In this document: piece by piece, positions 13,144-30,229 of the stretch
How the letters are laid out: each line of letters starts with the position of its first letter
How positions within the stretch are numbered: the stretch's first letter is position 1
DNA from: an uncultured candidatus Porisulfidus sp.
Lineage (GTDB): Bacteria; Pseudomonadota; Gammaproteobacteria; Poriferisulfidales; Poriferisulfidaceae
Reading direction: 5' to 3'
NCBI GenBank assembly: GCA_958431155.1
Contig: OY288106.1
Coordinates: 905,161-969,160 of the forward strand
DNA length: 64,000 nt
Notes under the pieces: generated by a model
The model's database searches: none
Seen by the model: the letters and a program-made list of their open reading frames with translations, nothing else
What the model was told of the DNA's origin: nothing
Program-made: the position numbers and the translations under genes

Positions 13144-14346
13144 ATGCCTCAATATCGCAAAGTCGTGCTCGCCTATTCGGGCGGCCTGGATACCTCGATC
13201 ATCCTGAAGTGGCTCCAGGACCGCTACAGTTGCGAGGTCGTGACGTATACCGCCGACCTCGGCCAGCAGGAAGACCTTGAGCCGGCTCGGCGGAGGGCGC
13301 AGGCGCTGGGCGTCCAGGACATCCGCATTGCGGACCTGCGCGAGACGTTCGCCCGCGACTACATCTTCCCGATGTTGCGCGCCAATCCCCTGTACGAGGG
13401 ACAGTACCTGCTCGGCACCGCCATCGCCCGGCCGCTGATCACGGCGGGCATGGTGCAGGCGGCACGGGAGTCGGGCGCGGATGCGATCGCCCACGGTGCG
13501 ACCGGGAAAGGAAACGACCAGGTGCGCTTCGAACTGGCCGCCCGGGCGCTGGAACCGGATCTGGCGGTCATCGCCCCCTGGCGGGAATGGGACCTGAACT
13601 CCCGGGCCGACCTGCTCGCATACGCCCGGCAGCACGGCATCGAGGTGGAGCAGAATCCGGACGGCGGCAGTCCCTATTCGATGGACGCCAACCTGCTGCA
13701 CATCTCCTACGAGGGAGGCGTGCTGGAAGACCCGGATGCCGCCCCGCCCGCCGACATGTGGCGCTGGACCACGGACCCGCAGGAGGCGCCGGACGAGCCG
13801 CAGATTTTGCGCGTCGCGTTCGAGAACGGCGATCCGGTTGCCGTCGACGGCCAGGTGCTGGAACCGGCCGCGCTGATGGAAGCGGTCAATGCGGTTGCCG
13901 CCCGCCATGGCATCGGCCGGGTCGATATGGTCGAGAACCGGTATCTGGGCCTCAAGTCGCGGGGATGCTACGAGACCCCGGGCGGCACCGTGCTGATGGC
14001 CGCGCATCGGGCCGTCGAGTCGCTGACCCTGGATCGCGAGGTCGCGCATCTCAAGGAGTCGCTGATGCCGCAGTACGCGACGCTGGTCTACAACGGCTAC
14101 TGGTTCAGCCCGGAGCGCGAGGCCCTGCAGCAGATGATCGACCACTCCCAGCAAGAGGTCTGCGGAGAGGCCCGGCTGCGCCTGTACAAGGGCTCGGTCA
14201 CCGTGGAGGGCCGGCAGTCCCCGAACAGCCGGTACGATCCAGCCCAAGCGACCTTCGAGGACGACCAAGGCCGGTTCGACCAGACCGACGCGACCGGATT
14301 CATCCGGCTGTCCGGCCTGCGGCTCAAGCCGAAGGAGAAGGAATAG
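13144..14346 (+). CDS. argG: Argininosuccinate synthase
   Basis: Joins citrulline and aspartate with ATP in arginine biosynthesis; cytosolic. The 400-residue protein has the PP-loop AYSGGLDTS (residues 10-18) and the family signature [13 protein letters not shown] (about 119-131), with [10 protein letters not shown] near the citrulline/aspartate site. Length is typical of the short bacterial type. It is divergent from rnt with 75 bases between. No ArgR box was recognised. Confidence 0.98.
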
Positions 14347-14435
14347 TTATGCTCCCGATCGCGGGTTTTTCCGATGCCTGATGGCGCCCGGGTAGGAAAA
14401 GCCCTCCTCGGCAAATAGGTATAATGGTCATCCTT

Positions 14436-15185
14436 ATGACATCTTCCATGTCGCAGCAATTCATGCTCCACCGATCCCGTCCTTCCGCCCTCGCCCTGGT
14501 TTGCCTGTTGGCGTTTTCCGGCTCCGCACTGGCCGACAACCATGCGCCTGCCGACCCGCGCGATCCCTGGGAAGGCTACAACCGTGCAATGTACGGGTTC
14601 AACAAGGGCATCGATTCGCTGTTCCTGAAACCGGCCGCTGAAACTTACGACACGCTGGTCCCGGAAGTCGTGGATCAAGGCGTCACCAACTTTTTTGCCA
14701 ACATCGGCGACATCCGGAATTCGCTCAACAATTTCCTGCAGGGCAAACCGGACGAAGGGGTCAATTCACTCGCCCGCCTGCTGATCAACAGCACGGTGGG
14801 GCTGCTCGGGTTCATCGACGTGGCCACGGAAATGGGAATCCGCAAATCGGAAGAGGACTTCGGCCAAACCTGGGGGGCTGGAGGAGCCGAGCCCGGCCCT
14901 TATTTCGTGTTGCCGTTTTTAGGCCCGAGCACGTTACGCGACGCGCTTGCCCGACCGTTCGATCTTGCTGCCAATCCTTTCACCTGGGCGGATGACAGTG
15001 CCGTCAGGGCGACCGCCTTGGGCGTTCAAGTCATCGATTACCGGGCCGGTCTGCTGGACACCGAGGAGGCCGTGGAAGGGATTGTCGAGGACGAATACAT
15101 CCTGGTGCGCAATGCCTATCTGGACCAGCGTCAGTTCGAGGTGAGCGACGGCGCGGTCACCGACGCCTACGAAATCGAAGAATAA
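14436..15185 (+). CDS. mlaA: MlaA (VacJ) phospholipid-transport protein
   Basis: Outer-membrane component that removes mislocalised phospholipids and passes them to MlaC. The conserved core DPWEGYNRAMYGFNKGID, then NFFANIGDIRNSLNNFLQG and EDFGQTWGAGG, is present. The N-terminus has a signal peptide (LALVCLLAFSGSALADN) that appears cleavable by signal peptidase I. The usual lipobox cysteine is missing, unlike most MlaA. The start is uncertain: TATAAT at 14420-14425 overlaps the first ATG (14424), so ATG 14436, 14448 or 14463 is more likely. No other mla genes are nearby. Confidence 0.9.
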   Translation: MTSSMSQQFMLHRSRPSALALVCLLAFSGSALADNHAPADPRDPWEGYNRAMYGFNKGIDSLFLKPAAETYDTLVPEVVDQGVTNFFANIGDIRNSLNNFLQGKPDEGVNSLARLLINSTVGLLGFIDVATEMGIRKSEEDFGQTWGAGGAEPGPYFVLPFLGPSTLRDALARPFDLAANPFTWADDSAVRATALGVQVIDYRAGLLDTEEAVEGIVEDEYILVRNAYLDQRQFEVSDGAVTDAYEIEE

Positions 15186-15234
15186 GAAACCTGCCCTGCC
15201 CGGGCAGGCGTTACATCAGCAGTTTTGCCGCGGC

Positions 15235-15417
15235 TCAGCCGCAGAACAGTTTTTTCAGCCAGCCGAACAGTCCGCCACCTTGGTCGCTTTCGCTACTCGA
15301 ACTGGGACTGGGTGCACTGGAACTGGATGCAGCAGGCGCAGGCGCGCTGTCGTCGCCACCCCGGCTCATCATTTGTTCGTGATGGCGTTTGAGAACGGAA
15401 TCCGTGGGTACGCTCAT
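15235..15417 (-). CDS. Small hypothetical protein with amphipathic C-terminus
   Basis: A 60-residue frame preceded by a GAGGG Shine-Dalgarno nine bases before the ATG. It has a charged N-terminus (MSVPTDSVLKRHHEQMMSRG), then a low-complexity Ala/Ser/Pro linker (about residues 21-45), and ends in GGGLFGWLKKLFCG. The last 11 residues could form a short amphipathic or membrane-binding helix with a terminal Cys. No family is recognised. It is convergent with mlaA. The ribosome binding site and modular composition favour a real gene, but this is not proven. Confidence 0.5.
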   Translation of the reverse strand: MSVPTDSVLKRHHEQMMSRGGDDSAPAPAASSSSAPSPSSSSESDQGGGLFGWLKKLFCG

Positions 15418-15572
15418 TGAAATCGGCCCTCATGCCGTTATTGTGTCGCCATTGTACATAATTGCACGTTCCGGCAAATGTCCGTCTCATTTCATGGAAT
15501 TTCAGCATGGTTCTGGTTGACAGGGTGGGCTGCCGCTCTCACAATGGACGCATCATTCAGCATTGATTCGGA

Positions 15573-16388
15573 ATGACTCAGGCACGCACCCTGAAGCCGG
15601 AAGAATACACGGTCGAACAAGAACCTTACTACGAGCCAATCGGCTCGGAAATCGAGGTGTTCGAGGCAGCCTGGAAAAACCAGTTGCCGGTCCTTCTCAA
15701 AGGGCCGACAGGTTGCGGGAAAACCCGCTTCATGGAATACATGGCATGGCGGCTCAAACGCCCCTTGATTACGGTCTCATGCCACGATGACCTGACCTCC
15801 TCGGATCTGGTCGGTCGCTACCTGATCGCGAGTGGTGAGACGGTATGGGTGGACGGGCCGCTGGCCCGCGCTGTGCGCTCCGGCAGCATCTGCTACTTGG
15901 ATGAAATCGTGGAGGCGCGCAAGGACACCACGGTCGTCATCCATCCCCTGTGCGATGACCGCCGGGTTCTCCCGATGGAAAAGCACGGCGAACTGCTGGA
16001 GGCTCCGGACGAGTTCTGCATGGCGATTTCCTACAACCCGGGCTACCAGAGTGTCCTCAAGGATCTCAAGCAAAGCACCCGGCAGCGTTTCGTGGCACTG
16101 GAGTTCGACTATCCTCAAGCGGAAATAGAACAGAAGATCGTGATTCAGGAAACCTCGGTGGATGCCGAGACCGCCAGGCTCCTGGTCAAATTCGCCGAAA
16201 TGACCCGTAACCTCAAAGGCAACGGCCTGGACGAAGGCGCCAGCACACGGCTTCTGGTCCATGCGGGAAAACTCATTCGATCGGGAGTGGATCCGACGGC
16301 GGCCTGCACGAGTGCGGTGTCGCAGGCATTGACGGATGACCCGGAGATGCTCCAGGCTGTCAACGAGTTGGGGTCGTCAGTGTTCTGA
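15573..16388 (+). CDS. cbbQ: CbbQ/NirQ/NorQ-family AAA+ ATPase
   Basis: MoxR-type AAA+ ATPase. Family members act with a VWA partner (CbbO or NorD) to activate RuBisCO or nitric oxide reductase. The 271-residue protein has Walker A GPTGCGKT (about 44-51), Walker [11 protein letters not shown] (about 107-116), the sensor region ISYNPGYQS and arginine-finger segment KQSTRQRF. The sequence resembles CbbQ more than NorQ. No cbbO, RuBisCO or nor gene is in the window, so the partner must be elsewhere. It overlaps the convergent acylase gene by 12 bases. Confidence 0.85.
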
Positions 16389-18728
16389 CGGCGCAAGCGT
16401 CATTGTCACCGAGGCAGGCCCCGGCAGGAACGGTGCCGGTTTCCCCTCCAACCAATCATTGTGCCCAACGTTGTAAAACGGCGATAAAGGATGGCCCGAC
16501 TGCCCGGTGGGCATGTTCATGATGCCGTCTTCTTCCCGGCCGGGGGAAACGACCGTGCGATGCGAAGCACCGAATGCCCGATGTTCAACCCGGGGAAGGT
16601 TGAGGTCGCCGGATAAGGGAGACGGCGGCACGTCCAGCAATCCTCCAAGAAACGGCAAGGCATGAGATAGCGGGTGGCGTATCTGGGTATAGTTGCGCGC
16701 ACCCCAAGTCGCCTCCGCCATGTCTCGCCCTCCCATTGTCATGTCCTCGATGGTCAGTTTCAACGCGAGCGCCAGGAATTCATCCCAGTGCTGCATGCCC
16801 TTGGGAAGGAAATGCTGAGCCCCGCTGTCCAGGATGCGAGTCAGGGGACCGTCCAGCTGCCACCGGAGGTGCCGGGTGTGCCGATCCGGAAACAACCCCA
16901 ACCGGGTCTGGAGCGCCAGCAGAAAGAGCTCGTGAGCACGCTTCCGGAATGTCCGAATGATTCGATAACCGACACTGTCGGCATTGCTGTGTCCATCCCA
17001 TTCGGCGAGCCATTCGCGGATGCGGTGACGTTCCGCCAGAGGGGAGATGCTGGCTTCATTCAGTGCCCGTTCCAGCCGAGGTCTCCATTCGTCCAGGTAG
17101 TCGGCCCGATTGTCGAGCTGCAAAGCCAATAGATCGGATTCGCTGAACGTGGTTTTTTCTCTCAGGCGGTTTCGGATCTGCCGGGCGCGCATCCCGGCGG
17201 TGTAGCGGCCATCCCCCAGCAGAGCGTACCTTTCATCGCCGATATGGCGGCTGTTGGCGGACCAGAGACGCTGGCCGGGAGGATTGAAGACCACAGGATA
17301 CTCGGCCGGACGCAGCCATTGAGGGGCAGGATCTTCAAGCATGGTGCTCTTGATCGGGATTCGGCCGCTGTAGCCTTTTCTCCTGGGTAAGGACCCGGCA
17401 ATGGTCCAACCGATATTGCCCTCGCGATCGGCGAGAAGCACGTTTTGCCACGGGATCGCGGATTGCTGGAACAAGACCATTGCGGAGTGTATCTCTTCGG
17501 ATGTTTCCAGTTGGCTGAAATTGATATGAGCTCCCGTCAGCCAGTGAGAAGCCCAACGCAAGGCGCGCTTTCGGTTTCGAGAGTCTTTGCCGACCACAGG
17601 TCCCCAAGAGGAGCTTTCATAGACAAGCTTCTCGTCCGAACCCAAGCGGACTTCCAGCACTTCCTCGATCACGGTCAGCGAAGGCTCCGCGGAATCCAGC
17701 ACAATCAAATCCTGGGTGTCGACATTGCTGTTGGTAAACCCCCAGGCGATTTTCCCGCTGCTGCCTGCGATCAACCAAGGCAGCCCCGGGAGGGTGAGGC
17801 CGCTGGCTATGCGCTCTTTCCCAGCATCGACCCATTGCCAATGCATCCGGTACCAGATGTTCGGCACCAATAAGACCAAGTGCATGTCATTGGCCAGCAA
17901 GGCACCGCCGTGGGAGGTCAGCTTGCCGCTGACGGCGAAGGCGTTGCTGCCGGGATTTTCCCACGACATCCGTACGTCCTTGAGGTTTTCCGGATTCAGG
18001 GGGGTGTCGCGCAGGTCTATTTCATGCGCTTCAGGTACGCGCGGGGCATAAAGCGGGATCGGGGTGTCATCCAGCGGAGCGTCGTAGTGAGTGCCGACCG
18101 GTGCCAGGAAATTCGCGACATCGACCCCGAAGGTCTCATGAAGAAACCCCACCACGGAATCGTACTTCCAGTGCCCGCCCTGAAGAACCAGGTGCATGGC
18201 AAAGAGCGACAGGATGCTGTCTTCCGGCTTCCACGGCTCGGGCCGGGTCAGAAACAGGACATAGGGGAATGGCCGGACGGGAAGTGCCTCCAGTCCCTGG
18301 TTGACTCCTTCGGTATAGGCCTGCAGGATGGCATGTTCGGTATCGGAGAGCCCGGCGACGATTCTCCGCGCCTGCTCGCGAAAACGATGCGATCGGTTTT
18401 CGCGGTCCCGCTCCAATACAAAGGGCCCCAGCAAAGCGGCCAATTCGCCCGCCGCGAACCGGCGGCGAGCATCCATGGAGAGAAAGCGTTCCTGGGCATG
18501 GATGAATCCCGTCGCCCGGGCGAGATCCGGCCGGGACTGGGCCTGAACCGTGGTATGGCCTATGGCATCGCGGGAGACGGCAACGGGAAAATGCAGGCCA
18601 GAGAGCCTCACAGTGCCCGAAATCTGTGGGCGACTTGAGTAGAGAACCGTTGTGAGAACCGAAACAAAGACGATGACGACAACCAGCGCAGCCCACAGTG
18701 CCACGCGCAACCGCTTTCGCATTCCCAT
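16377..18728 (-). CDS. Penicillin acylase family N-terminal-nucleophile hydrolase
   Basis: Amidase of the Ntn-hydrolase superfamily (penicillin, cephalosporin and acyl-homoserine-lactone acylases). The 783-residue precursor has an N-terminal hydrophobic segment ([20 protein letters not shown], about residues 13-32), so it is exported or membrane-anchored. It should self-cleave before Ser in [10 protein letters not shown] (about residue 261), the conserved GSNAF nucleophile. [15 protein letters not shown] lies in the alpha chain. The substrate is unknown; quorum-signal or peptide amides are possible. It overlaps the upstream slyD-like gene by one base (TGATG), implying coupled translation. Confidence 0.88.
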
Positions 18729-19225
18729 CAGTGCAAGGCGGGAGAATTCAATGCTTCCGGATTATGGATCTCTTCCTCGGTCGCGTCCCGCACATTCAGG
18801 ATATTGAGGAAAAACTTCAGGGTCTTGCCGGCAAGAGGATGGTTGCCGTCCAAGGTGAGTCTGTCTCCGTCGATGGAAATGACGCGAAATCGATGGACAT
18901 CCCCCATTTCGTTCTCGAAGTCCGCTTCAGCGCCAACATGATGGAACTGCTCAGGGACATCGGACAGGCTCTGCGTCAACTGCAGGGTCGGGTCCAGATC
19001 TCCAAAGGCATCTTCGGGGCGAATCAGAACTTCGACGGTATCGCCTGCCCGTCGGTTTTCCATAGCAGACTCAATCCGTTGCCACAGGCCGAATTCGCTG
19101 CCGTGCACATAGGAGACGGGCAAATCAATCTGCTCCAGGACCTGGCCGCTTTCGTCTAGGATGCGGTAAGTGAATTCGACCAGTTTGTTTGGGCGGATGG
19201 ATGTGCCGGCAGTGTGGGGAGTCAT
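18728..19225 (-). CDS. SlyD-like FKBP peptidyl-prolyl isomerase
   Basis: Two-domain FKBP (FK506-binding fold with an inserted chaperone flap) that catalyses prolyl cis-trans isomerisation. The 165-residue protein has VEFTYRILDESGQVLEQ, then SYVHGSEFGLWQRIESAM, and ends the fold with DGNHPLAGKTLKFFLNIL, the SlyD/FkpB signature. It lacks the His/Cys-rich nickel tail of enteric SlyD and a signal peptide, so it is probably cytosolic. It is translationally coupled to the downstream acylase gene, which suggests a folding role for that unit. Confidence 0.88.
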   Translation of the reverse strand: MTPHTAGTSIRPNKLVEFTYRILDESGQVLEQIDLPVSYVHGSEFGLWQRIESAMENRRAGDTVEVLIRPEDAFGDLDPTLQLTQSLSDVPEQFHHVGAEADFENEMGDVHRFRVISIDGDRLTLDGNHPLAGKTLKFFLNILNVRDATEEEIHNPEALNSPALH

Positions 19226-19424
19226 AGGCGATAAGGCCCGAATTTGTTGCCAAGTAGGAAAAGTTCGCTGTCAGGTCATTTTACCCGATAGAGTATTACG
19301 CCAAGATTTATTTACCGTAGATGATTCTTGGGCCTTAGAAGGGTTTTAGGGCTTCTGCCCGCGGTTAAAAAAACAGGCGCCCCGAAGGGCGCCTGCTTGT
19401 TTGGGGTGCCTTAGCTAGACTGAA
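19226..19424. other. Spacer between slyD-like gene and porin 1
   Basis: About 200 bases between the divergent-facing ends. The porin 1 terminator occupies 19367-19395. The remaining 19226-19366 should hold the promoter of the slyD-acylase unit, but no clear -35/-10 pair was recognised. Confidence 0.4.
19367..19395 (-). terminator. Intrinsic terminator of porin 1
   Basis: On the minus strand, CAGGCGCCC-TTCG-GGGCGCCTG forms a perfect 9-bp stem followed by seven T residues (19367-19373). The identical hairpin follows porin 2 at 26847-26875, so the terminator is part of the duplicated unit. Confidence 0.93.
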
Positions 19425-19760
19425 TCAGTCGAACCAGTGCACGATACCCACTGCGAACATCTCGATCTCCGCACCGGGTGAACCCAGTCCGGTACCGGAG
19501 ATGCCCTGACCGTAGGTTCCGTTGTCGTCGTTGTCGACTTCGGAGTAGGTCAGACGCAGTTCCGTACCGGCCGGCATGGTGTAGAACAGGCCTACGTTCC
19601 ATGCGTCAGCTGCGGTTTCGTCCCAGTCGCCCGAGCAGGATCCGCAGGAGACCTCGAGGTCATCCGCATCCATGTAGGAGAAGCGGAAGTCCACGGGACC
19701 GCCGAACTTGATCTTGCCGGATACCATCCAGGCGTCACGCTCGATCTTGACGTTCTGGCC
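19367..19760 (-). repeat. C-terminal arm of porin inverted repeat, copy 1
   Basis: The last 111 codons of porin 1 plus its terminator. The encoded residues are identical to those of porin 2 (26482-26875), and I count about seven base differences in the coding part, all synonymous. Homology stops at the end of the T-run. The two copies are in opposite orientation about 6.7 kb apart. Confidence 0.9.
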
Positions 19761-21302
19761 TGCGGTGGGAGGCATATACGTGTCTACCGCGTCCTGGTGC
19801 GCTTTCATGGCAGCAGTATTGGCTATCGGGAGAGCCAAATCAACCGCCGCAGATCTTAGTGCGTCGTATTTTGCTACGAACTCCAATTCTGCAGCACTCG
19901 CACCCTCGTCAGTACCAGTAGTCTCCGGGTCATCCATCTTCATCCTGAAGTACTCTGCGGCAGCGCCCATTTCCATGAGATAGCTGCCTAGAGCATTTTG
20001 GACTTCATCCATATCGGGATCCTCATCCGCAAGCATATTCGTACCTGCGTTGAGGAAAGTAGGCGTGGGAGCCGCTTGCGAAGTCTCTGTTCCACCCGTA
20101 CCGGGCACTCCATTTGCATTAACAATACCGAAGTGCGTAGCTGATTCGTCCACATCTGTAGTAGACGTATCGTCCGCTATGACACGCTTAAAAACGGTTT
20201 CTGCTGCGCTAGCACCGGTGCCTAGAATGCTTCTGAAAAGCCCATAGGTTTTCTGGTTTTGGACCTGCATCTCTGAGAGATCGCCAGCCATAAGTGCCTC
20301 AAAGTCTCCCGGAGGAGCGTCCTCCATGCCCGCCATCAGGTTGCCGGATGTACCGAAGTTCGAATATCCGAACGCAGCCATCGCCTTCTCGACGCTGGAC
20401 ACGTCGTTGAACTCGTACTCCAGGTCTTCCCACATGGCCGAGATCTGAACGCTCATGCCGTCACCCATATCCATGATGTAGCGGCCTGCAACACGGAAAC
20501 TTTCCGCATCTGAACTGTCCATTTCGCCAACAGAAACTGCGGTCCAGTCCTCATGGTCCTGCCAGGTCACCGCCAGCCACAGCGGGCCGTTGGTGTACGC
20601 CAGGCTGCTTGAACGGATTACCGGATCGATATCTCCACAATGTGAAATACAATTTCCATCAGCGTCGGTCATGCGACGCGGGCTGTTGCCTTCGTCACGA
20701 TTGCCAGCGGTCCATGCGAAGCGGAACACGAAACCGTTCCAGTTCGGAGACCAGTACTGGATGATGTTCTCCTGACGACGGTTGAAGCCCGTGTCATAGC
20801 CTCCGCCCGCGTAGTTGAACTCAGCTCCACTGAAATCGGTGCCCGGCCCCGAGCCCGAGGCCTGGATGTCGAAGTCACCGGTGTTGTAAAAGATGGTGTG
20901 GGCGCCGACCGAACCCATGATGCTGGTATGCGAATCCGCACCGGCATCGTAGAACGGGTCGACCCACTGTGCTACGCCCTCGTTGTAGGGCAGCAGCCAG
21001 GTGGCAAGCATAATCTCACCCATCTGGGGATGAGACAAACCAATCTTGGAATTACGGTTACACCAGCCGGTGCCGCCCGCAAAGTGGTTAAAGTAGGTGA
21101 ACTGCTCGCATCGCACGTTGACCATGATGCCGTCCATGCCGGTGTCAACGCTGGCTGTGAAGCCAATGTTGCCGGCATTAGAACTTATCCGGTCGAAGCT
21201 GCGTCCACCATCTATATCCACAAAATCCCAGGAATGATTCTGCCATCCATAGATATTCCATGTCTCGGCTTGCGCCGCAAACGGCGCGACGGCCAGAGCC
21301 AT
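19425..21302 (-). pseudogene. Porin 1: open frame without normal start (silent copy candidate)
   Basis: Outer-membrane beta-barrel porin homologous to porin 2 (25033-26817). The frame is open for 625 codons. It shares about 315 N-terminal residues (mature start AETWNIYGWQNHSW) and an identical 111-residue C-terminus, but the central 196 residues (19761-20348) are unrelated. Where porin 2 has ATGAGAAAACC, porin 1 reads ATACC: the ATG and the basic MRKPFLIA part of the signal peptide are lost. The first in-frame ATG (21302) has no Shine-Dalgarno and would give a signal peptide without positive charges. A stop codon lies 8 codons upstream. It is probably not expressed in this configuration, yet it carries no internal stop, so selection or recent exchange is implied. 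Confidence 0.8.
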
Positions 21303-21325
21303 GGCGATTAGAAATGGTATTTTTT
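20349..21325 (-). repeat. N-terminal arm of porin inverted repeat, copy 1
   Basis: About 0.95 kb matching 25033-25977 in inverted orientation. The protein sequences differ at scattered positions only (for example WDF/WEF, FTYFN/FMYLN) until FGYSNFGT, after which similarity ends abruptly. On the 5' side similarity ends at the start codon; the sequences further upstream are unrelated. Confidence 0.88.
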
Positions 21326-21411
21326 ACTTTCGACAACTCTGAAAACCCTTCGGCAAAGGCCTACCGATCCCGTAAACTGAGGCTCCAGCCGGGATAGTCT
21401 GCTGTCGCTTC

Positions 21412-22314
21412 ATGTCTGACTCCACGCATCTTTTAAAGTTCGGCCATGCCCGGTTGAACGGGCGCCAAATTTCCGAATTGCTGGGATTATGCAGGGGCCT
21501 GATCGCTGACGGGAAGATCGTCCAAAGCGAAGCAGAGTCGCTTTACGCCTGGCTAATAGACCAAGAAGGAATGGGGCACCCTCTCGTAGAAACCCTGCGA
21601 ACTCAAGTTGGACAAATGCTCGAAGACGAAGTGCTGGACACTGGTGAAAGTGAGGAATTGATGTGGCTGGTGCAGAGCCTTATCGACAACCGCCTGGAAA
21701 CAGAAGTTCCTCTAAGTCGTAATGGTCTGCCAATCCACAATCTGGACGACTACCAGATTTCCGCGTTGCTTGGATTGTGCCGGGGTTTGATCGCGGATGG
21801 AAAAGTCGACCGGAACGAAGCGGATATGCTTCACATATGGTTAACGGCTCATAAAGAGACGATTCACAACCCGGTAATGTTGGCATTTCGAAACAAATTA
21901 AGTACTTTTATGGACAAAAACCCTGAAGATGCAGACAATAATGTGCAATTATTGCAGTTACTGAGCGGATTGATCGGTGGAAAAACGGAGGTCGGGGAAT
22001 GCCTCCGCGCAACGATGCTGTGGCTGGATGACCCACCACCAGAGGTTGTGTTCGAGGGTCGGAAATTCTGCCTGACTGGCAAATTCTCCTGCGGCAAGCG
22101 CATCCAATGCGAGGATAAGGTTCGAGCCCGCGGGGGAGCCTGCCAATCGTCTCCGAACAAAGCAACGGATTATTTGGTTATCGGATCCTATGCGGAAAAA
22201 ACCTGGATACAGTCCGCATACGGGCGCAAAATCGAGAAAACCGTGGAGTTGCGTGCTGGCGGATCACCCATCCGGATTATCTCCGAGGAACATTGGCTAG
22301 CGAGCATGGTGTAG
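21412..22314 (+). CDS. BRCT-domain protein with two TerB-like repeats
   Basis: A 300-residue protein of unknown role. Two copies of a helical unit share GLCRGLIADGK (about residues 26-36 and 122-132), each preceded by QIS-LL and followed by acidic helices, resembling TerB/tellurite-resistance-type helical domains. The C-terminus (about 215-300) is a BRCT domain with VFEGRKFCLTGKFSCGKR, KVRARGGACQSS and TDYLVIGSYAEKTW, as at the end of DNA ligase. BRCT domains bind phosphoproteins or DNA ends, so a DNA-associated role is possible. It lies between the two porins, with its promoter in the 86 bases next to the damaged porin 1 start. Confidence 0.75.
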   Translation: MSDSTHLLKFGHARLNGRQISELLGLCRGLIADGKIVQSEAESLYAWLIDQEGMGHPLVETLRTQVGQMLEDEVLDTGESEELMWLVQSLIDNRLETEVPLSRNGLPIHNLDDYQISALLGLCRGLIADGKVDRNEADMLHIWLTAHKETIHNPVMLAFRNKLSTFMDKNPEDADNNVQLLQLLSGLIGGKTEVGECLRATMLWLDDPPPEVVFEGRKFCLTGKFSCGKRIQCEDKVRARGGACQSSPNKATDYLVIGSYAEKTWIQSAYGRKIEKTVELRAGGSPIRIISEEHWLASMV

Positions 22315-22331
22315 CCGGCCTCTTGCGGCAA

Positions 22332-22557
22332 CCGGCTGCAGAGATCAGGATACCTCAATCTTTTGCAACAGCAGACCATCAAAGAATCTCGGGCTGGTTA
22401 CCGATACGGCCTGTAAAAATGTCGCGGAGCCAAGCCTTTGTCTAATTGCATGGATCACGACGCCAGACATGCCAACTTAGGCATGAGCGACTTCGCGCCG
22501 ATGTAGAAATGCCAAGGGTTCTCCGACAGACTGAAGCATCCTGATCTCTGCAGCCGG
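22332..22557. repeat. 226-base element bounded by perfect 20-base inverted repeats
   Basis: CCGGCTGCAGAGATCAGGAT (22332-22351) recurs as its exact reverse complement at 22538-22557, with 186 bases between. The interior has no gene but includes a smaller hairpin (CATGCC-N6-GGCATG). No target-site duplication is visible. It fills the space between the BRCT gene and the recombinase stop. It may be a miniature element, a recombination site pair or a structured RNA. Confidence 0.7.
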
Positions 22558-22572
22558 ACGTTCGATCAAGGG

Positions 22573-23745
22573 CTAGACCTCCTGCACTATGCGATTGATT
22601 CGGGTTTTCTCATGGCAGACGATATCCCAGACGAACCCAGTCAATTCACGGGCGATCGCGACGCAAACCACCTTTTGATTCTTCCCCGCCGTGATTAGTT
22701 TCCGATACCGCCCGCACAGCCGTTTTTGTGCCTTCCAAGCGATTGCCTGAGCATAGGCGGAGGCGCCTTCCGCCTTCCGATTCATGTAGGCGGTCTGACG
22801 TGCCGGGAAGCGGTAGCACCAGGCCGACTCGACCAGCACCTGCCGAGCATGACGGTTTCCCGCTTGCGTGACACCACCGGTGCGATGATGAGGTCCGGAA
22901 CTGTAGACGCAAGGCACTAATCCCAAGTAACCCATCAGCTGATTGGGGGAATTAAACCGACTGATGTCGCCCAGCTCGGACAGCAGTGTGACAGCGGACA
23001 GCTGATCGAACCCGCGCAGTGCTATCAGACTGTTGGCCAGAGGCGCCCAGGACCAGTTCTGCAGGGCTTGATTCAGTTTTTGATCCAGGTCGATCATCCG
23101 CGAGGATGACAGGCGAACGGCCGCGATGTATTCGTCTCGGACTTCAGTCTGAGATCCATACGGAAAATCAAGACTCTCCAACCATTCGAGGTGTTTTTGC
23201 GTCCAGCGTTTCCGGTTGGTCGGCCAATGATGTCCATGACGCAGAACAAAGGCATTGAGCTGCTGGCGCAGTTTTTGCTGCTGCGCCTTGAAATCTGCGC
23301 GGCAGCGGCATAGATCTCGAACCGCCTCTTGTTCCCGGTCCGGCACCCAAACCTCTATCAACTCTCCGGCACGCAACAGTCGTGCCAGACGTAACGCATC
23401 CCTGCGGTCCGTCTTGATCTTTTCATTGCGTGGAGGGACTACAACCTGGCAATCCATGCCCATGGCCGTCAGGTTCTGGTACAGAGTGTACCCGCAAGGG
23501 CCGGCCTCGTAGCAAAGTAGAAAAGCCTTTTTCTCCAAATACAGGCAGTCCACGAGCTTGGTGACTGCTTTCTTTGTATGCGGAATCGTACCGAGGGACT
23601 TCGGGGCTTCCCGGCCCGCATAGGCAACCGCAACAGCAATACTGTCCTTGTGGACATCCAGTCCAACATAACCCGCATACGGCCTGGAGAGAACCGAGTC
23701 GTTGGCAGACGTGCTCCGTGTTGCTTCAGAAGTTTGTTCTTTCAT
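22573..23745 (-). CDS. IS110/Piv-family DEDD recombinase (transposase)
   Basis: Site-specific recombinase of the IS110 family, which includes the Piv invertase of Moraxella; several IS110 elements are directed by a bridge RNA. The start ATG 23745 (MKEQTSEATR) follows AGGAGAG, giving 390 residues. The RuvC-like N-terminal part shows YVGLDVHKDSIAVAV, CYEAGPCGYTLY and KTDRRDALRLARLL, the DEDD residues. The C-terminal Transposase_20 part has LIALRGFDQLSAVTLLSELG, LGLVPCVYSSG and GNRHARQVLVESAW. The frame is intact. It sits between two inverted porin genes. Element ends are not defined here. Confidence 0.92.
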   Translation of the reverse strand: MKEQTSEATRSTSANDSVLSRPYAGYVGLDVHKDSIAVAVAYAGREAPKSLGTIPHTKKAVTKLVDCLYLEKKAFLLCYEAGPCGYTLYQNLTAMGMDCQVVVPPRNEKIKTDRRDALRLARLLRAGELIEVWVPDREQEAVRDLCRCRADFKAQQQKLRQQLNAFVLRHGHHWPTNRKRWTQKHLEWLESLDFPYGSQTEVRDEYIAAVRLSSSRMIDLDQKLNQALQNWSWAPLANSLIALRGFDQLSAVTLLSELGDISRFNSPNQLMGYLGLVPCVYSSGPHHRTGGVTQAGNRHARQVLVESAWCYRFPARQTAYMNRKAEGASAYAQAIAWKAQKRLCGRYRKLITAGKNQKVVCVAIARELTGFVWDIVCHEKTRINRIVQEV

Positions 23746-24019
23746 TTGATTGTCTCTCCTTGAAGTCAAGAGTTGTAAGGGGTAAACACCGCGGATGCAT
23801 CCGAGTGCAACGGTGCGGGCTATGATGAGAACCAGTTTTCACGGAACGTTATTATTGTCTCGGTTCATGCCCCGCATATCGTTGGTCTTGATTTGAGGGG
23901 AGACAGTTCAGGGGGGATGGGGGTACGAATCGGTGCTTGTCCAATCCTTGCACTCGCTGATTGCAATCCAAATCGACTAGCCGTGTGATCTCGTCTGAAT
24001 TTTCGTCCAGGAGATGATG
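23746..24019 (-). other. Non-coding region upstream of IS110-type recombinase (bridge-RNA candidate)
   Basis: About 270 bases without a gene. It contains a perfect 12-base palindrome, CGGATGCATCCG (23792-23803), enclosed by CACCG (23787-23791) and CGGTG, which could fold into a longer hairpin. In the IS110 subgroup the guide (bridge) RNA is encoded upstream of the recombinase, in the IS1111 subgroup downstream. The location and structure potential fit, but no loop-target match was checked. The Shine-Dalgarno of the next gene is AGGAG at 24009-24013. Confidence 0.35.
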
Positions 24020-24262
24020 ATGGAAATGATTGGAGTTTGTGAGGCCAAAACATATTTGCCTAAATTGCTTGATCGCGTGGCACGGGGAGAGAATCTGGCC
24101 ATTACAAGGCATGGCAAACCTGTTGCGAAACTGGTGCCTGTGACCACAGATCGGGAGCAGGCGAAGGAAACACTTGGCCAGATCGCCGAACTCCGCCGGC
24201 ATGTCAAACTAGTGCCGCTGGCGGAACTGATGGCTACAGTTCACGAAAGGCACCGCTGTTGA
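24020..24262 (+). CDS. Phd/YefM-type antitoxin
   Basis: DNA-binding antitoxin of the Phd/YefM fold, 80 residues from ATG 24020 (spaced 6 bases from AGGAG; ATG 24014 and 24017 are too close). The sequence IGVCEAKTYLPKLLDRVARG then NLAITRHGKPVAKLVPV is the canonical prevent-host-death domain. The C-terminal half (EQAKETLGQIAELRRHVKL) should bind the toxin. The overlapping downstream PIN toxin is frameshifted, so this antitoxin now has no full-length partner at the locus. Confidence 0.88.
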   Translation: MEMIGVCEAKTYLPKLLDRVARGENLAITRHGKPVAKLVPVTTDREQAKETLGQIAELRRHVKLVPLAELMATVHERHRC

Positions 24263-24664
24263 TCGTCGCAGACCATTCCGTATTTCTGGCTTGGTGCATG
24301 GGGGATGAGGGAGATCTTTCGGGCTAGAGGCAATGCCGCACGTTTCCGGGGAAGGCGGGGTTGTGCCGCACATCTGGTGGTATGAATTTCGTAATGCCCT
24401 ACTGATGAACGAGCGGCGTGGACGGATCTCTTCGCAGCAGGTCGCGAAAACCTTAGCAGCCAGCTCTGCTCTAAAAATCGAGATTGACGAGAGTCATGAC
24501 GAATTGCAGATTCTGGGTTTCTGCCGCGGTTTGATCTGACCGTCTACGATGCCGCGTATTTGGAAGTAGCTTTCCGACGCAGCCTGCCTCTGGCGACGCT
24601 TGATCACCAGCTACGCAAGGCCGCAGACGTGATTGGAATTGCTACGGTTCACCGACAAGACTGA
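24259..24664 (+). pseudogene. PIN-domain toxin, broken by two frameshifts
   Basis: VapC-type RNase fragments lie in three successive frames. The first begins at TTG 24259 overlapping the antitoxin stop (LIVADHSVFLAWCMGDEGDL) and stops near 24326. The second runs about 24327-24539 (VPHIWWYEFRNALLMNERRG). The third ends at 24664 (LTVYDAAYLEVAFRRSLPLA then TLDHQLRKAADVIG). All four PIN acidic positions (VAD, YEF, YDA, TLD) are still present, so inactivation appears recent, or one of the shifts is a sequencing error. It was probably a functional phd-vapC pair. Confidence 0.8.
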
Positions 24665-25032
24665 AGTGGCCGAAAGGTTGTCGAGAAACCCGGGCCACCA
24701 AAACCCGCAGGCGAACCTACAACGGGCAGGTATACGGCCTTACCACGACGACCGAAAAAGCAGGCATTAATATTTTCTTACATATCAATGTTTTATCAAT
24801 CGAGGAAAATTTTTGAAGTAGATATTGCGTGACGTTGTTTTTTATTAACGAGAGGATTTGAATTACTGATTTCTCGCTGATTTTCTTGAGTTGCAAAAAA
24901 ACAACACCAAGAAAATTTGACAATTCCTTTAAGGCTATAGACAATTCGCAATTGAGTATGGCAGTTTTGCCAGATTCCCGTGGGGCATGATCACCTCGCG
25001 GTACTACTAATATTTTTAGGAGTCCTAAAAAA
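24665..25032. other. AT-rich regulatory spacer upstream of porin 2
   Basis: 368 bases. 24665-24879 holds nothing recognisable beyond AT-rich sequence. A 113-codon minus-strand frame at 24717-25058 has no family features and overlaps the porin 2 start, so it is not called. 24880-24945 holds a hairpin and promoter (separate entry). TGGCA-GTTT-TGCCA near 24959 is a small inverted repeat in the leader. AGGAG at 25018-25022 is the porin Shine-Dalgarno. Confidence 0.6.
24880..24945 (+). promoter_or_regulatory. Porin 2 promoter with adjacent hairpin/operator
   Basis: TTGACA (24917-24922), a 17-base spacer and GACAAT (24940-24945) form a plausible sigma-70 promoter with a leader of about 80 bases. 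Directly upstream is the inverted repeat ATTTTCTTG (24880-24888) / CAAGAAAAT (24908-24916). The pairing can extend inward through GTTG/CAAC. It abuts the -35 element, where a regulator of porin expression could bind. This promoter lies inside the segment between the inverted porin arms. Confidence 0.55.
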
Positions 25033-25977
25033 ATGAGAAAACCATTTCTAATTGCCATGGCTCTGGCCGTCGCGCCATTTGCGGCGCAAGCCGAGACATG
25101 GAATATCTATGGATGGCAGAATCATTCTTGGGAGTTTGTGGATATTGACGGCGGACGCAGTTTCGACCGAATCCAGTCCAACGCCGGCAACATTGGCTTC
25201 GCGGCCAGCGTCGACACCGGCATGGACGGCATCATGGTCAATGTCCGATGCGAGCAGTTCATGTACTTGAACCACTTCGCGGGCGGCACCGGCTGGTGCA
25301 ACCGTAACTCCAAGATTGGTTTGTCTCATCCGATGATGGGTGAGATCATGTTTGCCACCTGGCTGCTGCCCTACAACGAGGGCGTGGCGCAGTGGGTCGA
25401 CCCGTTCTACGATGCCGGTGCGGATTCGCATACCAGCATCATGGGGTCGGTCGGCGCACACACCATCTTCTACAACACTGGTGACTTCGACTTTCAGGCA
25501 TCTGCTTCGGGGCCGGGCACCGGCTTTAGTGGGGCTGAGTTCAACTACGCGGGTGGAGGCTACGACACGGGCTTCAACCGTCGTCAGGAGAATATCATCC
25601 AGTACTGGTCCCCGAACTGGAACGGTTTCGTGTTCCGCTTCGCATGGACTGCTGGTTTTCGTGACGAGACAGCTGCGCCTACTGGCGGTGGCGACATCGA
25701 TCCGGTAATCCGTTCAAGCAGCCTGGCCTACACCAACGGCCCGCTGTGGCTGGCGGTGACTTGGCAGGATCATGAGGACTGGACTGCGGCTTCCGTGGGC
25801 CAGATGAACAGTTCGGACGCGGAGAGTTTCCGTGTTGCAGGTCGCTACATCATGGATATGGGTGACGGCATGAGCGTTCAGATCTCGGCCATGTGGGAAG
25901 ACTTGGAGTACGAGTTCAACGGCGTGACCAACGTTGATGCGGCTATGTCTGCATTCGGGTATTCCAACTTTGGTACC
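25033..25977 (+). repeat. N-terminal arm of porin inverted repeat, copy 2
   Basis: Codons 1 to about 315 of porin 2, matching 20349-21325 on the opposite strand. This copy carries the intact ATG and signal peptide that copy 1 lacks. Confidence 0.88.
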
Positions 25978-26817
25978 TACGACCTGCTAGACAGTGCCGG
26001 CAGTGTCATCGGAATGACTCCGGAGATGCCAGGCACTCCATCTATGCAGGTACCGGTCGACCAAGATGATATCGATGCTGAGAAGACCTATGACCTGATT
26101 CTGAGATTGTTTCCTGACTGCTTCGATGGAGCCGATGCAAGTTCGGATCAGTGTCCGGGATCCTTTGATGCGGTACTTGGATACACAACACCTACTACAG
26201 TCGAGGACTTGCCTTTGACTGAAGAGGATGAGTCTCTAACCTCTACCCCAGGCAACGGCGGCACGAGTATCGCTGATGAGGATGGTACCGACCTAGCTAC
26301 CGCTGTGGCGGCACTGAAAGCTTTAGCCGAGGCCGACACCCCGGACGCCAATGATGTTTACCAGTACAACACGCTGGTTAACGCGGCTAGAATGGCTGCT
26401 GAAGAAACAGCTGGGATGACGGATGCCGTGCCGGATACGCCAGCAGTCAGTATGGCTGACAACAGAGCTATGATGACTATGGGCCAGAACGTCAAGATCG
26501 AGCGTGACGCCTGGATGGTGTCCGGCAAGATCAAGTTCGGCGGTCCCGTGGACTTCCGCTTCTCCTACATGGATGCGGATGACCTTGAGGTCTCCTGCGG
26601 ATCCTGCTCGGGCGACTGGGACGAAACCGCTGCTGACGCATGGAACGTAGGCCTGTTCTACACCATGCCAGCCGGCACGGAACTGCGTCTGACCTACTCC
26701 GAAGTCGACAACGACGACAACGGCACCTACGGTCAGGGCATCTCCGGTACCGGACTGGGTTCACCCGGTGCGGAGATCGAGATGTTCGCAGTGGGTATCG
26801 TGCACTGGTTTGACTGA
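25033..26817 (+). CDS. Porin 2: outer-membrane porin with variable central segment
   Basis: Predicted outer-membrane beta-barrel channel. The 594-residue precursor begins MRKPFLIAMALAVAPFAAQA, a complete Sec signal peptide cleaved before ETWN. Alternating hydrophobic strands follow (NGFVFRFAW, PLWLAVTW, SVQISAMW). Residues from about 316 to 483 (25978-26481) are acidic, low in barrel pattern and unrelated to the same region of porin 1. The last 111 residues are identical to porin 1. The C-terminus HWFD is unusual because most porins end in an aromatic residue. The strongly acidic surface composition would suit a saline habitat. It has its own promoter, an AGGAG Shine-Dalgarno and a strong terminator. 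Confidence 0.85.
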   Translation: MRKPFLIAMALAVAPFAAQAETWNIYGWQNHSWEFVDIDGGRSFDRIQSNAGNIGFAASVDTGMDGIMVNVRCEQFMYLNHFAGGTGWCNRNSKIGLSHPMMGEIMFATWLLPYNEGVAQWVDPFYDAGADSHTSIMGSVGAHTIFYNTGDFDFQASASGPGTGFSGAEFNYAGGGYDTGFNRRQENIIQYWSPNWNGFVFRFAWTAGFRDETAAPTGGGDIDPVIRSSSLAYTNGPLWLAVTWQDHEDWTAASVGQMNSSDAESFRVAGRYIMDMGDGMSVQISAMWEDLEYEFNGVTNVDAAMSAFGYSNFGTYDLLDSAGSVIGMTPEMPGTPSMQVPVDQDDIDAEKTYDLILRLFPDCFDGADASSDQCPGSFDAVLGYTTPTTVEDLPLTEEDESLTSTPGNGGTSIADEDGTDLATAVAALKALAEADTPDANDVYQYNTLVNAARMAAEETAGMTDAVPDTPAVSMADNRAMMTMGQNVKIERDAWMVSGKIKFGGPVDFRFSYMDADDLEVSCGSCSGDWDETAADAWNVGLFYTMPAGTELRLTYSEVDNDDNGTYGQGISGTGLGSPGAEIEMFAVGIVHWFD

Positions 26818-26875
26818 TTCAGTCTAGCTAAGGCACACCAAACAAGCAGGCGCCCTTCGGGGCGCCTGTTTTTTT
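26482..26875 (+). repeat. C-terminal arm of porin inverted repeat, copy 2
   Basis: Last 111 codons of porin 2 and its terminator, matching 19367-19760 in inverted orientation. The 3' untranslated sequence GATTCAGTCTAGCTAAGG is shared too. Similarity stops after the T-run. Confidence 0.9.
26847..26875 (+). terminator. Intrinsic terminator of porin 2
   Basis: CAGGCGCCC-TTCG-GGGCGCCTG hairpin (26847-26868) followed by seven T residues. It is the same hairpin as after porin 1. Confidence 0.94.
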
Positions 26876-27018
26876 GTGCCTCAACCTCCCAGTAAAGCTT
26901 GTCACAATTTGCCCGAAATCTCGTGTCCCTTCCCCTCTATGTTTTATAATTTGAATCCTGCCATGGCATCCCAGTTTCCCAACCCAACCCGGCCGCAACC
27001 CGGCCGGTCCTGCCCTAC

Positions 27019-27993
27019 ATGACCCTAGAACAGATTCGTGCGCTGGTCACTGACGACCTTGCCGCGGTGGACCGTCTATTGCGTGAACGATCGCGCTCCG
27101 AGGTCGGCCTGGCGGATCAAGTCGCTCGCTACATCATGGGAGCCGGAGGCAAGCGCCTACGCGCTGTTCTCGTGCTTTTGTGCGGACGCGCACTGGGCGG
27201 ACTGCGCCATCCGGATGCCTCTTTTCTGCTGGCTGCAGTTATCGAGTTCATTCACACTGCCTCTCTCTTGCACGACGACGTGGTCGACGATTCGGAAGTT
27301 CGGCGAGGCCGGGCCACTGCAAACAAGGTCTGGGGTGACGAGGCCAGCGTGCTCGGCGGAGATTTCTTCTACTCTCGCGCATTCGGCATGATCGCTGAAA
27401 TAGACCACTCTGAGGTTACTCGAATTCTGGCCAATGCCTCCAACGCGATCGCGGAAGGCGAATTGCTGGAGTTAATGCATGCCAGGCGGGTGGGAATGGA
27501 TGAAACCCAGTATCTGACCATCATCGAGGGCAAGACAGCCAAACTGTTCGAAGCCTCCTGCATAGCAGCTGCCCGGATCGAGGGGGCAAGCGACGAATGC
27601 GCCCGCGAGTTGACTGATTTCGGCCGACTGCTTGGCGCGGCGTTCCAGATCGCGGACGATGCCATCGACTATTTGGAAGACAACCCGGAAGCAGATAAAA
27701 GCGTCGGGGATGACCTCGCGGGCGGTCGCCTGACCTTACCCTACATCTACGCCCTGCGCGAAGCCTCGGAAAAAGACCGGGAATTCCTCCACCATGCAAT
27801 CCAGTCCGGTCAGCGCGAACACATCCAGGAGGTCTGCGCGATCATGCACCGGTCCGGAGCCATCGATTATGCCTGGAAGCGTGCTGGGGAATTCGCACAG
27901 CGGGCTCGAGAACGGTTAGATATTCTGAATCCCTCACCGTGGCGGGATGCGCTAGACGGCGTGACTGAGTTTTCAGTCTCCCGAAGGTATTAA
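27019..27993 (+). CDS. ispB: Octaprenyl (polyprenyl) diphosphate synthase
   Basis: Trans-prenyl transferase that makes the isoprenoid tail of quinones. The 324-residue protein has the first aspartate-rich motif LHDDVVDDSEVRRG (about residues 84-97) and the second, QIADDAIDYLEDN (about 213-225), with GGKRLRAVLVLL near the N-terminus. Length and motifs match IspB. Quinones would serve the DsrMKJOP membrane complex encoded downstream. A TATAAT at 26945-26950 is the only promoter-like element seen in the preceding spacer; no convincing -35 accompanies it. Confidence 0.92.
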   Translation: MTLEQIRALVTDDLAAVDRLLRERSRSEVGLADQVARYIMGAGGKRLRAVLVLLCGRALGGLRHPDASFLLAAVIEFIHTASLLHDDVVDDSEVRRGRATANKVWGDEASVLGGDFFYSRAFGMIAEIDHSEVTRILANASNAIAEGELLELMHARRVGMDETQYLTIIEGKTAKLFEASCIAAARIEGASDECARELTDFGRLLGAAFQIADDAIDYLEDNPEADKSVGDDLAGGRLTLPYIYALREASEKDREFLHHAIQSGQREHIQEVCAIMHRSGAIDYAWKRAGEFAQRARERLDILNPSPWRDALDGVTEFSVSRRY

Positions 27994-28132
27994 GTTAATT
28001 CACCCAAGACCCGACCAGGGTTTTTCACCTTTCGCCCTGTCCCCGAAGCCGTCCCTCGGCATTAATTACTGTCATATTTCACATTTGCGTTATATTCGGG
28101 CAGGATACTGATTCACTGCTAGAGTATGCAGT

Positions 28133-30229
28133 ATGGCGGATAAAAAAGAATTAATCCAGCGCTATAACTGTCGCGAAATCTCGCAATTGCAGTTCAACCT
28201 GCGGGTCGTCATGCAGGGGGCGGACAAGAGCACCCCGGTGCTGGAGCGCCTGCGCTTCCTGTGCATCGCAAGCCGCAACCTGGACGAGTTCTTCGAGGTG
28301 CGGGTCGCCGCCCTGCACCAGCTGGTCAAGTACGGCACCGAAGCGCAGAGCGGCGAAGGCCTGACCGCCCAGGAGATCCTCGCGGAAATCTCCAGGCAGG
28401 CGCACACCATCGTCAAGCTCCAGTATCGACTGCTGCAGAGAAGCGTGCTGACCGCGTTGCGGACGCGCGACATCTGCTTTCTGCGCCGCCACGAGTGGAA
28501 CAAGGCCCAGCGACAGTGGATCCGCCAGTATTTCCGCCGCAATATCCTGCCCATTCTCTCTCCGCTCGGACTCGACAGCCGCCATCCGTTCCCGCGCGTG
28601 CAAAACAAGAGCCTCAACTTCATGGTCAAGCTCGCCGGCAAGGATGCCTATGGCCGGAGCACCGAGTATGCCGTCGTCACCGCGCCGCGCTCCCTGCCTC
28701 GCATCGTACGTCTGCCGGACGAGGTCGGCAACAAGCGCGACAGTTACGTCTTCCTGTCCTCGATCATCCACGACAACCTCGAGGACCTGTTCCCCGGGCT
28801 CAAGATCAAGGGCTGCCACCAGTTCCGGGTCACCATGGACAGCAACCTGTTCTACGACGAGGAGGAAGTGGAAAGCCTGCGTGATGTCCTGGCTGGTGTT
28901 CTGCCAGAACGCCAGTACGGCGAAGCGGTGCGCCTGGAGGTGGTCAACGACTGCCCGCGCGACATCATTCGCTTCCTGCGCGAACAGTACCAACTCGACG
29001 CCGACAGCGTCTACGAAGTCAACGGTCCGGTCAACCTGTACCGGCTGATGAACTTCCCGGAACTGATCGACCGCCCGGACCTGCGTTATCCCCCCTACCG
29101 CCCGAAGACGCCCAAGGTCTTCAGGAGCCTGCCGACCTCGAGCCGGCTGTTCGACCTCCTGGACCGGCAGGACATCCTGCTGCACCACCCGTTCAATTCG
29201 TTCAAGTGGACCATCCGGTTCCTGCGCGAGGCTGCCGCGGATCCCAAGGTGGTCGCCATCAAGCAGACGATCTACCGGACCGGGCTCGAGTCCGACCTGA
29301 CCGACATCCTGGAATCGGCGGCCCGGTCGGGCAAGGAGGTCACCGTAATCATCGAACTGAGCGCACGCTTCGACGAAGAAGCCAACATTCAGCTGGCCCA
29401 ACGACTGGAGCAAGCCGGTGCCCAAGTATTGTACGGCGTGGTCGGACACAAAACCCACGCCAAGATGATGTTGGTCGTCCGCCGCGGCGAGGAGGACCTG
29501 CACCGCTATGCGCACCTCGGTACAGGCAACTACCATCCGGTCACAACCCGCCTGTACACCGACTACGCCCTGCTGACGGCCAACCAGGACCTGTGCGAGG
29601 ACGTACACAAGATCTTCCTGCAGGTGGCCAGCCTCGGCCGAGCTCCCAAGCTCAGCCTGATGTACCAGTCGCCGCTGACCCTGGGCCAGGGAATCATCAA
29701 GAAGATCCAGGCGGCTGCAGAACGGGCCCAAAAAGGGGAAAAAGCGATCATCTACGGCAAGATGAACGCCTTGACCGAATACGGGATCGTCGACGCCCTC
29801 TACGAGGCCTCTCGGGCCGGTGTCACCATCGATCTGCTGGTGCGCGGCGAATGTCGCCTGCGCCCCGGCGTCAAGGGCCTCTCGGACAATATCCGCGTCC
29901 GCTCCATCGTCGGGCGCTTTCTGGAACACACCCGGGTATTCTATTTCCGCATCGGCGAGGACGAAGAGATGTACCTCTCAAGTGCCGACTGGATGACCCG
30001 GAACATTCACCGCCGCGTGGAAACGATGTTCCCAGTACTGGACGAGGGCATCAAGAAACGGATCATGCGGGAGATTTTCGAGACTTACTCTGCAGACAAC
30101 TGCCAGAGCTGGCAGATGGAACCCGACGGCACCTACACCAAGACCGCTATCGGCCGCGGGCACAAGCGCTTCTCCGCACAGGAGGCACTGATGGCAATGC
30201 ATGGAGAAATCGATGAATCCCACCTATAG
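28133..30229 (+). CDS. ppk1: Polyphosphate kinase 1
   Basis: Reversibly polymerises the ATP gamma-phosphate into polyphosphate at the inner face of the membrane. The 698-residue protein shows the N-terminal helical domain (SRNLDEFFEVRVAALHQL) and the phospholipase-D-like catalytic domains with GHKTHAKMMLVVRRGE, which includes the autophosphorylated His. Length is typical. It overlaps ppx by 17 bases, so synthesis and breakdown of polyphosphate are cotranscribed. The spacer 27994-28132 has TATATT at 28091-28096 but no convincing -35 or Pho box. Confidence 0.97.
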   Translation: MADKKELIQRYNCREISQLQFNLRVVMQGADKSTPVLERLRFLCIASRNLDEFFEVRVAALHQLVKYGTEAQSGEGLTAQEILAEISRQAHTIVKLQYRLLQRSVLTALRTRDICFLRRHEWNKAQRQWIRQYFRRNILPILSPLGLDSRHPFPRVQNKSLNFMVKLAGKDAYGRSTEYAVVTAPRSLPRIVRLPDEVGNKRDSYVFLSSIIHDNLEDLFPGLKIKGCHQFRVTMDSNLFYDEEEVESLRDVLAGVLPERQYGEAVRLEVVNDCPRDIIRFLREQYQLDADSVYEVNGPVNLYRLMNFPELIDRPDLRYPPYRPKTPKVFRSLPTSSRLFDLLDRQDILLHHPFNSFKWTIRFLREAAADPKVVAIKQTIYRTGLESDLTDILESAARSGKEVTVIIELSARFDEEANIQLAQRLEQAGAQVLYGVVGHKTHAKMMLVVRRGEEDLHRYAHLGTGNYHPVTTRLYTDYALLTANQDLCEDVHKIFLQVASLGRAPKLSLMYQSPLTLGQGIIKKIQAAAERAQKGEKAIIYGKMNALTEYGIVDALYEASRAGVTIDLLVRGECRLRPGVKGLSDNIRVRSIVGRFLEHTRVFYFRIGEDEEMYLSSADWMTRNIHRRVETMFPVLDEGIKKRIMREIFETYSADNCQSWQMEPDGTYTKTAIGRGHKRFSAQEALMAMHGEIDESHL

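Follow-up and report, generated by a model that had tools for sequence, protein, structure and literature searches.

A candidate RNA-guided DNA invertase for porin switching in sponge-associated sulfur-oxidising bacteria

The porin locus described here lies in the window, a 64,000-nucleotide stretch of contig OY288106.1 from an uncultured candidatus Porisulfidus sp., and probably encodes a domesticated, bridge-RNA-guided DNA invertase that drives porin switching. Two outward-facing genes of the Porin_4 family, porin 1 and porin 2, flank a segment that harbors an IS110-family recombinase, a conserved structured RNA, a BRCT-domain gene, and an expression leader joined to porin 2. No further porin copies occur in the host genome (G000), a single contig of 1.59 Mb. 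The locus was compared with those of relatives represented by metagenome-assembled genomes (MAGs) of sponge sulfur-oxidisers (Candidatus Porisulfidus and others), among which 21 porin copies have a readable 5′ end. The coordinates of all features are given in Table 1.

Porin homology begins at ATTTCTAAT in all 21 copies, under ten unrelated upstream sequence families. Left of this junction, conservation is limited to ATTT and a weak tract reaching about −10, and since ATTT is kept in non-coding left halves, there is no protein reason for keeping it. A common break point under unrelated upstream sequences is the signature expected of a recombination site. Only one copy per genome has TTTTTAGGAGTCCTAAAAA and an ATG, the remaining copies being start-less. 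G000, G001, G004, and G005 each carry this leader once only; it was not assembled in G003 or G002, and the porin start of G002 is likewise unassembled. Because the same break point recurs under ten unrelated upstream families and the leader is single in each genome, the start-less state is more than chance. The TTTTTAGGAGTCCTAAAAA element surrounds the Shine-Dalgarno sequence of porin 2 (25014-25032) as a perfect 9-bp inverted repeat with a 1-nt center, identical in four genomes, and possibly serves as an operator or in translational control.

The porin bodies each close with their own terminator, after which the flanks diverge, and the number of cassettes varies between genomes. The start-less bodies are open from the junction, except for a junction stop in one orthologue group, and their differences are concentrated at third codon positions; on both grounds they are not decaying. 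The middles of porin 1 and porin 2 (19761-20344 and 25982-26481), flanked on both sides by conserved ends, are hypervariable; they differ at every codon position and change length at many points, and are probably exposed loops.

The start region of porin 2 reads TTTTTAGGAGTCCTAAAAAA ATG AGA AAA CCA TTT CTA ATT GCC ATG, and that of porin 1, on the minus strand, GTCGAAAG TAA AAA ATA CCA TTT CTA ATC GCC ATG. A first-pass annotation of the window had described porin 1 as an open but silent cassette that lost exactly its start codon, together with its expression signals, through the loss of six bases (GAGAAA). As it had noted, porin 1 has no ATG at the start position, no Shine-Dalgarno sequence, and no promoter; an in-frame TAA lies 8 codons ahead of the first ATG (21302), from which the frame runs for 625 codons without a stop. 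The supposed deletion, however, does not hold. Upstream of porin 1 lies DNA that belongs to the 5′ flank of the BRCT gene and is unrelated to that ahead of porin 2; the two have “AT” in common by coincidence. Homology ends not at a lost start codon but at (CC)ATTTCTAAT, the same point in every copy examined (21/21). Deletion of the start codon is therefore ruled out by the unrelated left halves. The description of porin 1 as a promoterless, start-less, open, silent cassette is retained, given its intact frame, its own terminator, its third-position excess, and the same class of copy in relatives, whereas the loss of a start is replaced by a right half-site whose present left half is the silent one. 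Neither the recombinase, nor the RNA, nor a switch figured in that annotation's finding.

The recombinase matches Pfam PF01548 and PF02371 above cut-off and scores 221 bits against the NCBIfam model NF033542, “IS110 family RNA-guided transposase” (cut-off 140). It has both the DEDD RuvC-like domain and the Transposase_20 domain with its SG motif that define the IS110-family RNA-guided recombinases, and the catalytic residues D38, E88, D121, D124, and SG291-292 are invariant. The gene is single-copy in five of six genomes (G000, G001, G002, G003, and G005) and is found at the porin locus in all but G002, with 84-89% identity and mostly third-position differences, which indicates strong constraint. 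No conserved insertion sequence (IS) ends were found at its flanks, in contrast to the relatives in G374 and G727, and single copy and absent ends together rule out a mobile IS110/IS1111 insertion sequence. Elsewhere, several of its relatives are mobile elements that occur in multiple copies and bear subterminal inverted repeats; against these, the single-copy gene without conserved ends reads as a domesticated member of the family. A PDB sequence search with the recombinase returned no match, no relatives at E ≤ 1e-80 were found within the order outside the genus, and an AlphaFold model, with a predicted local distance difference test score of 48, was not used.

Directly 3′ of the recombinase gene is the conserved non-coding RNA, for which an Rfam search gave no match. 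Eight sequences share a common fold, which has two hairpins besides a closing stem of 30 bp; one hairpin contains an internal loop of 10+10 nt, and the second, donor-like one is variable. The fold exhibits 15 compensated pairs, a number equalled in 0 of 500 shuffles, and the pairing is lost when the partners are slid; single-sequence folding gives a z of −6.5. The internal loop holds CATTTCTA and GCAATTA, one for each half of the junction CATTTC-TA-ATTGC, such that the loop strands GGCATTTCTA and CAATTAGACA are sense to its left part and antisense to its right part, respectively. A structured RNA beside the gene, a loop with two guides, matches to opposite site strands, and an overlap at the core are all present, so that the molecule resembles a bridge or seek RNA in sequence and predicted structure.

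The match is nearly unique. When a scan of the 64-kb window was limited to the loop strands, the porin 2 junction ranked first, and the sole equal score was that of the guide’s own gene. A search of six genomes with CATTTCTAATTGC, allowing one mismatch, returned 15 matches, 14 of them porin junctions. The 1.59-Mb host genome has only two: a perfect one at porin 2 and, inverted relative to it, one at porin 1 with a single mismatch.

The behavior of the mobile relatives calibrates this assignment. Five mobile elements have readable ends and guides, and in four of them the left loop strand matches the DNA flanking the insertion. For the element in G374, pairing with the DNA just past the element end, G-U allowed, amounts to 7, 7, 7, and 6 of 7 pairs in four insertions, and the corresponding values for L110 and L111 are 6/7 each. 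In G727, the left loop strand AGGGCGT is opposite ACGCCC at three of the four insertions and opposite ACGCCG at the remaining one (read by eye). TA adjoins the guide in all calibration relatives, which suggests a TA core. The G727 element, a 41% relative present in four copies (L121, L125, L127, and L129), apparently inserts into integron attC-like sites. A 66% recombinase relative lies away from the porin locus in G002 (L079:5006-6426); there, the left guide CATTTCTA is kept and the right guide is changed to GTGATTA, a combination that predicts the site CATTTC-TA-ATCAC. Target prediction for a 54% paralogue in G004 (L080) gave nothing clear.

The segment between the porins is found in both orientations, as fixed by the neighboring genes. 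The window has the order SlyD, start-less porin 1, BRCT, IS110, leader, porin 2, IspB, and PPK, while G001 has SlyD, a porin with the leader, IS110, BRCT, a start-less porin, IspB, and PPK. Alignment of the two yields collinear blocks at 14002-19764 and 26488-30685 and inverted blocks at 20334-23679 and 24833-25919. The leader is thus on different porins in the two lineages, IspB-side in G000 and SlyD-side in G001.

Such a difference could in principle be an assembly error in one genome, with porin 1 a dead duplicate whose start was lost by rearrangement. Assemblers can be misled by inverted repeats, and several MAG contigs break off within a porin. Against this, almost every complete start-less body is open from the junction, with differences concentrated at third codon positions, and the single leader, the common break point, and the RNA match are independent of orientation in any assembly, making this explanation very improbable.

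The proposed switch would operate as follows. Each porin cassette would begin at CATTTC-TA-ATYGC inside the signal-peptide code and end with its own terminator, while one left half per genome would supply the promoter, ribosome-binding site, and start codon. The two internal-loop strands would pair with opposite strands of a site, with an overlap of TA or CT at the core. Together with the RNA, the recombinase would then bring two inverted sites together and exchange their halves, moving the leader to the other porin body, and recombination with inverted sites elsewhere would give other silent porins access to the leader. Because a single loop matches both sites and the second hairpin varies, a target × target reaction is possible. 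It is hypothesized that recombinase and RNA catalyze the inversion, that one RNA loop binds both sites, and that the silent porins are unexpressed; the benefit would presumably be variation of an exposed surface protein. The broader reading, which is somewhat favored, is that of a natural domesticated RNA-guided DNA invertase that has lost transposition, addresses both sites with its target loop (the donor loop being degenerate), and rotates one promoter among genome-wide porin cassettes in animal-associated bacteria.

The main rival holds that homologous recombination of the RecA type, acting on the long inverted repeats of the porins, inverts the segment and brings about conversion of silent copies, on the pattern of Campylobacter fetus sapA, with the IS110-type gene and RNA as passengers or otherwise employed. 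The two porins do share inverted repeats (654, 294, and 394 nt; 89-98% identity), and in every region tested a porin copy resembles the others of its genome more closely than it does its orthologues. On the latter ground, homologous recombination is also at work; it may homogenize the bodies and could invert the segment. As a full account, however, it leaves unexplained the one break point under ten unrelated left halves, the match of the RNA loop to that break point, and the conserved single-copy recombinase within the segment, and it is considered unlikely. Another possibility is that recombinase and RNA formerly spread start-less cassettes by rare insertions, with no regular inversion now. 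Although this would explain the common break point under unrelated left halves, the RNA match, and the differing number of cassettes between genomes, the strong constraint on the recombinase and the position of the leader on different porins in G000 and G001 render it improbable.

Several observations weigh against an RNA-guided invertase. The two orientations come from different species, one of which is represented by a MAG, and the concerted evolution evident in the greater likeness of copies within a genome erases the signal by which the crossover of past events could be placed from cross-species porin bodies. The porin 1 site and several others carry one guide mismatch. Unrestricted shuffling of the RNA gives a p of only about 0.009, so what carries the claim is that the matching stretch falls inside the loop and that it is nearly unique genome-wide. 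One mobile relative (L108) fails the calibration with 2/7 pairs, and the mobile relatives show weak pairing at the opposite side of the core. Finally, the proposed target × target reaction differs from the described IS110 reaction, which uses the donor loop.

Table 1. Features of the porin locus (window coordinates)
Feature	Position	Strand	Remarks
Porin 1 cassette terminator	19367..19395	−	Hairpin and T run; homology between cassettes stops here
Porin 1 body	19425..21302	−	From first in-frame ATG; no start signals; coding homology starts at site 21304-21316
Porin 1 putative recombination site	21304..21316	−	CATTTC-TA-ATCGC; core TA 21309-21310; one mismatch to guides
Putatively invertible segment (~3.7 kb) between the two cores	21310..25049		BRCT gene, RNA, recombinase, leader; opposite orientation in G001
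BRCT-domain gene	21412..22314	+	Travels with recombinase; porin 1 has the 5′ flank of this gene as its silent left half
Conserved, covarying non-coding RNA (bridge/seek-type)	22332..22557	−	226 nt; directly 3′ of recombinase gene
Right internal-loop strand GCAATTAGACA	22439..22449	−	Guide antisense to TA-ATTGC side of site
Left internal-loop strand GGCATTTCTA	22504..22513	−	Guide matching CATTTC-TA side of site
IS110-family DEDD recombinase	22573..23745	−	390 aa; single copy; ATG 23745 after AAGGAG (open reading frame list: TTG 23769)
Promoter-like site TTGACA-17-GACAAT	24917..24945	+	Part of the single leader; conserved across four genomes
Leader end TTTTTAGGAGTCCTAAAAA with Shine-Dalgarno, and ATG	25014..25035	+	One place per genome
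Porin 2	25033..26817	+	Copy presently joined to leader
Porin 2 putative recombination site	25043..25055	+	CATTTC-TA-ATTGC; core TA 25049-25050; perfect guide match
Porin 2 cassette 3′ end	26818..26875	+	Own terminator

The BRCT gene encodes its BRCT domain at the C-terminal end and, at the N-terminal end, a motif (GLCRGLIADGK) that is apparently repeated; the gene accompanies the recombinase at the porin locus in relatives. At 24014-24660, a Phd-type antitoxin is followed by an apparently decayed toxin frame; Phd relatives occur near the recombinase in G003, G004, G005, and L008. The gammaproteobacterial porin locus is also found on contigs L008 and L010, binned as Rhodothermales and Rhodobacter, both of which are probably mis-binned.

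If the proposal is correct, it would give RNA-guided recombination a role in physiology and show how a transposon can turn into a gene switch. By this means, beneficial sponge symbionts may vary one major protein of their surface, possibly as protection against phage or recognition by the host. In the literature searched, which did not extend to preprints, no invertase guided by RNA was found to act in phase variation, and priority is not established.

The bridge RNAs or seekRNAs of IS110 and IS1111 elements (e.g., IS621 and ISEc11) are structured RNAs adjacent to the gene, whose internal-loop strands match opposite target strands and overlap at the core (PMC11208160, PMC11187229). The porin locus shares with these systems the DEDD recombinase family and an adjacent structured RNA with a two-strand guide loop. 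In contrast to the mobile elements, with their ends and donor loop, its gene is single-copy and without conserved ends, and both sites match one loop. The RNA is 5′ of the gene in IS621 but 3′ at the porin locus, as in IS1111 and some IS110 members.

The Piv invertase of Moraxella is related to IS110 and inverts a segment to switch a pilin gene (cited in PMC11187229). At the porin locus, an IS110-family protein is encoded between inverted putative sites beside surface-protein genes, and opposite orientations are found; inversion by this enzyme is proposed. No guide RNA for Piv is described in the literature searched. Piv belongs to the 315-330 aa IS492/IS621 branch, whereas the porin-locus protein, at 390 aa, is closest to mobile elements with a 3′ RNA and so is probably a separate domestication.

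In the sapA S-layer system of Campylobacter fetus, one promoter serves several promoterless homologues as the promoter segment inverts, a process attributed to RecA-dependent recombination over shared 5′ sequence. The porin locus likewise has a single promoter, promoterless homologues, and a promoter segment found inverted, but, unlike sapA, it has a dedicated recombinase and a matching RNA inside the segment. Shufflons and the Vpma/Vsa lipoprotein switches of mycoplasmas employ tyrosine recombinases for site-specific inversion, with one promoter for a silent surface-protein family. No tyrosine or serine recombinase was found within the segment between the porins, where the recognized genes are BRCT, IS110, and Phd. 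The arrangement of one promoter for a family of silent surface-protein genes is shared with shufflons and Vpma/Vsa, while the candidate enzyme is a DEDD protein with an RNA. A phase-variation switch with its site written in a guide RNA would join the bridge and seek RNAs of mobile elements and Piv in pilin inversion.
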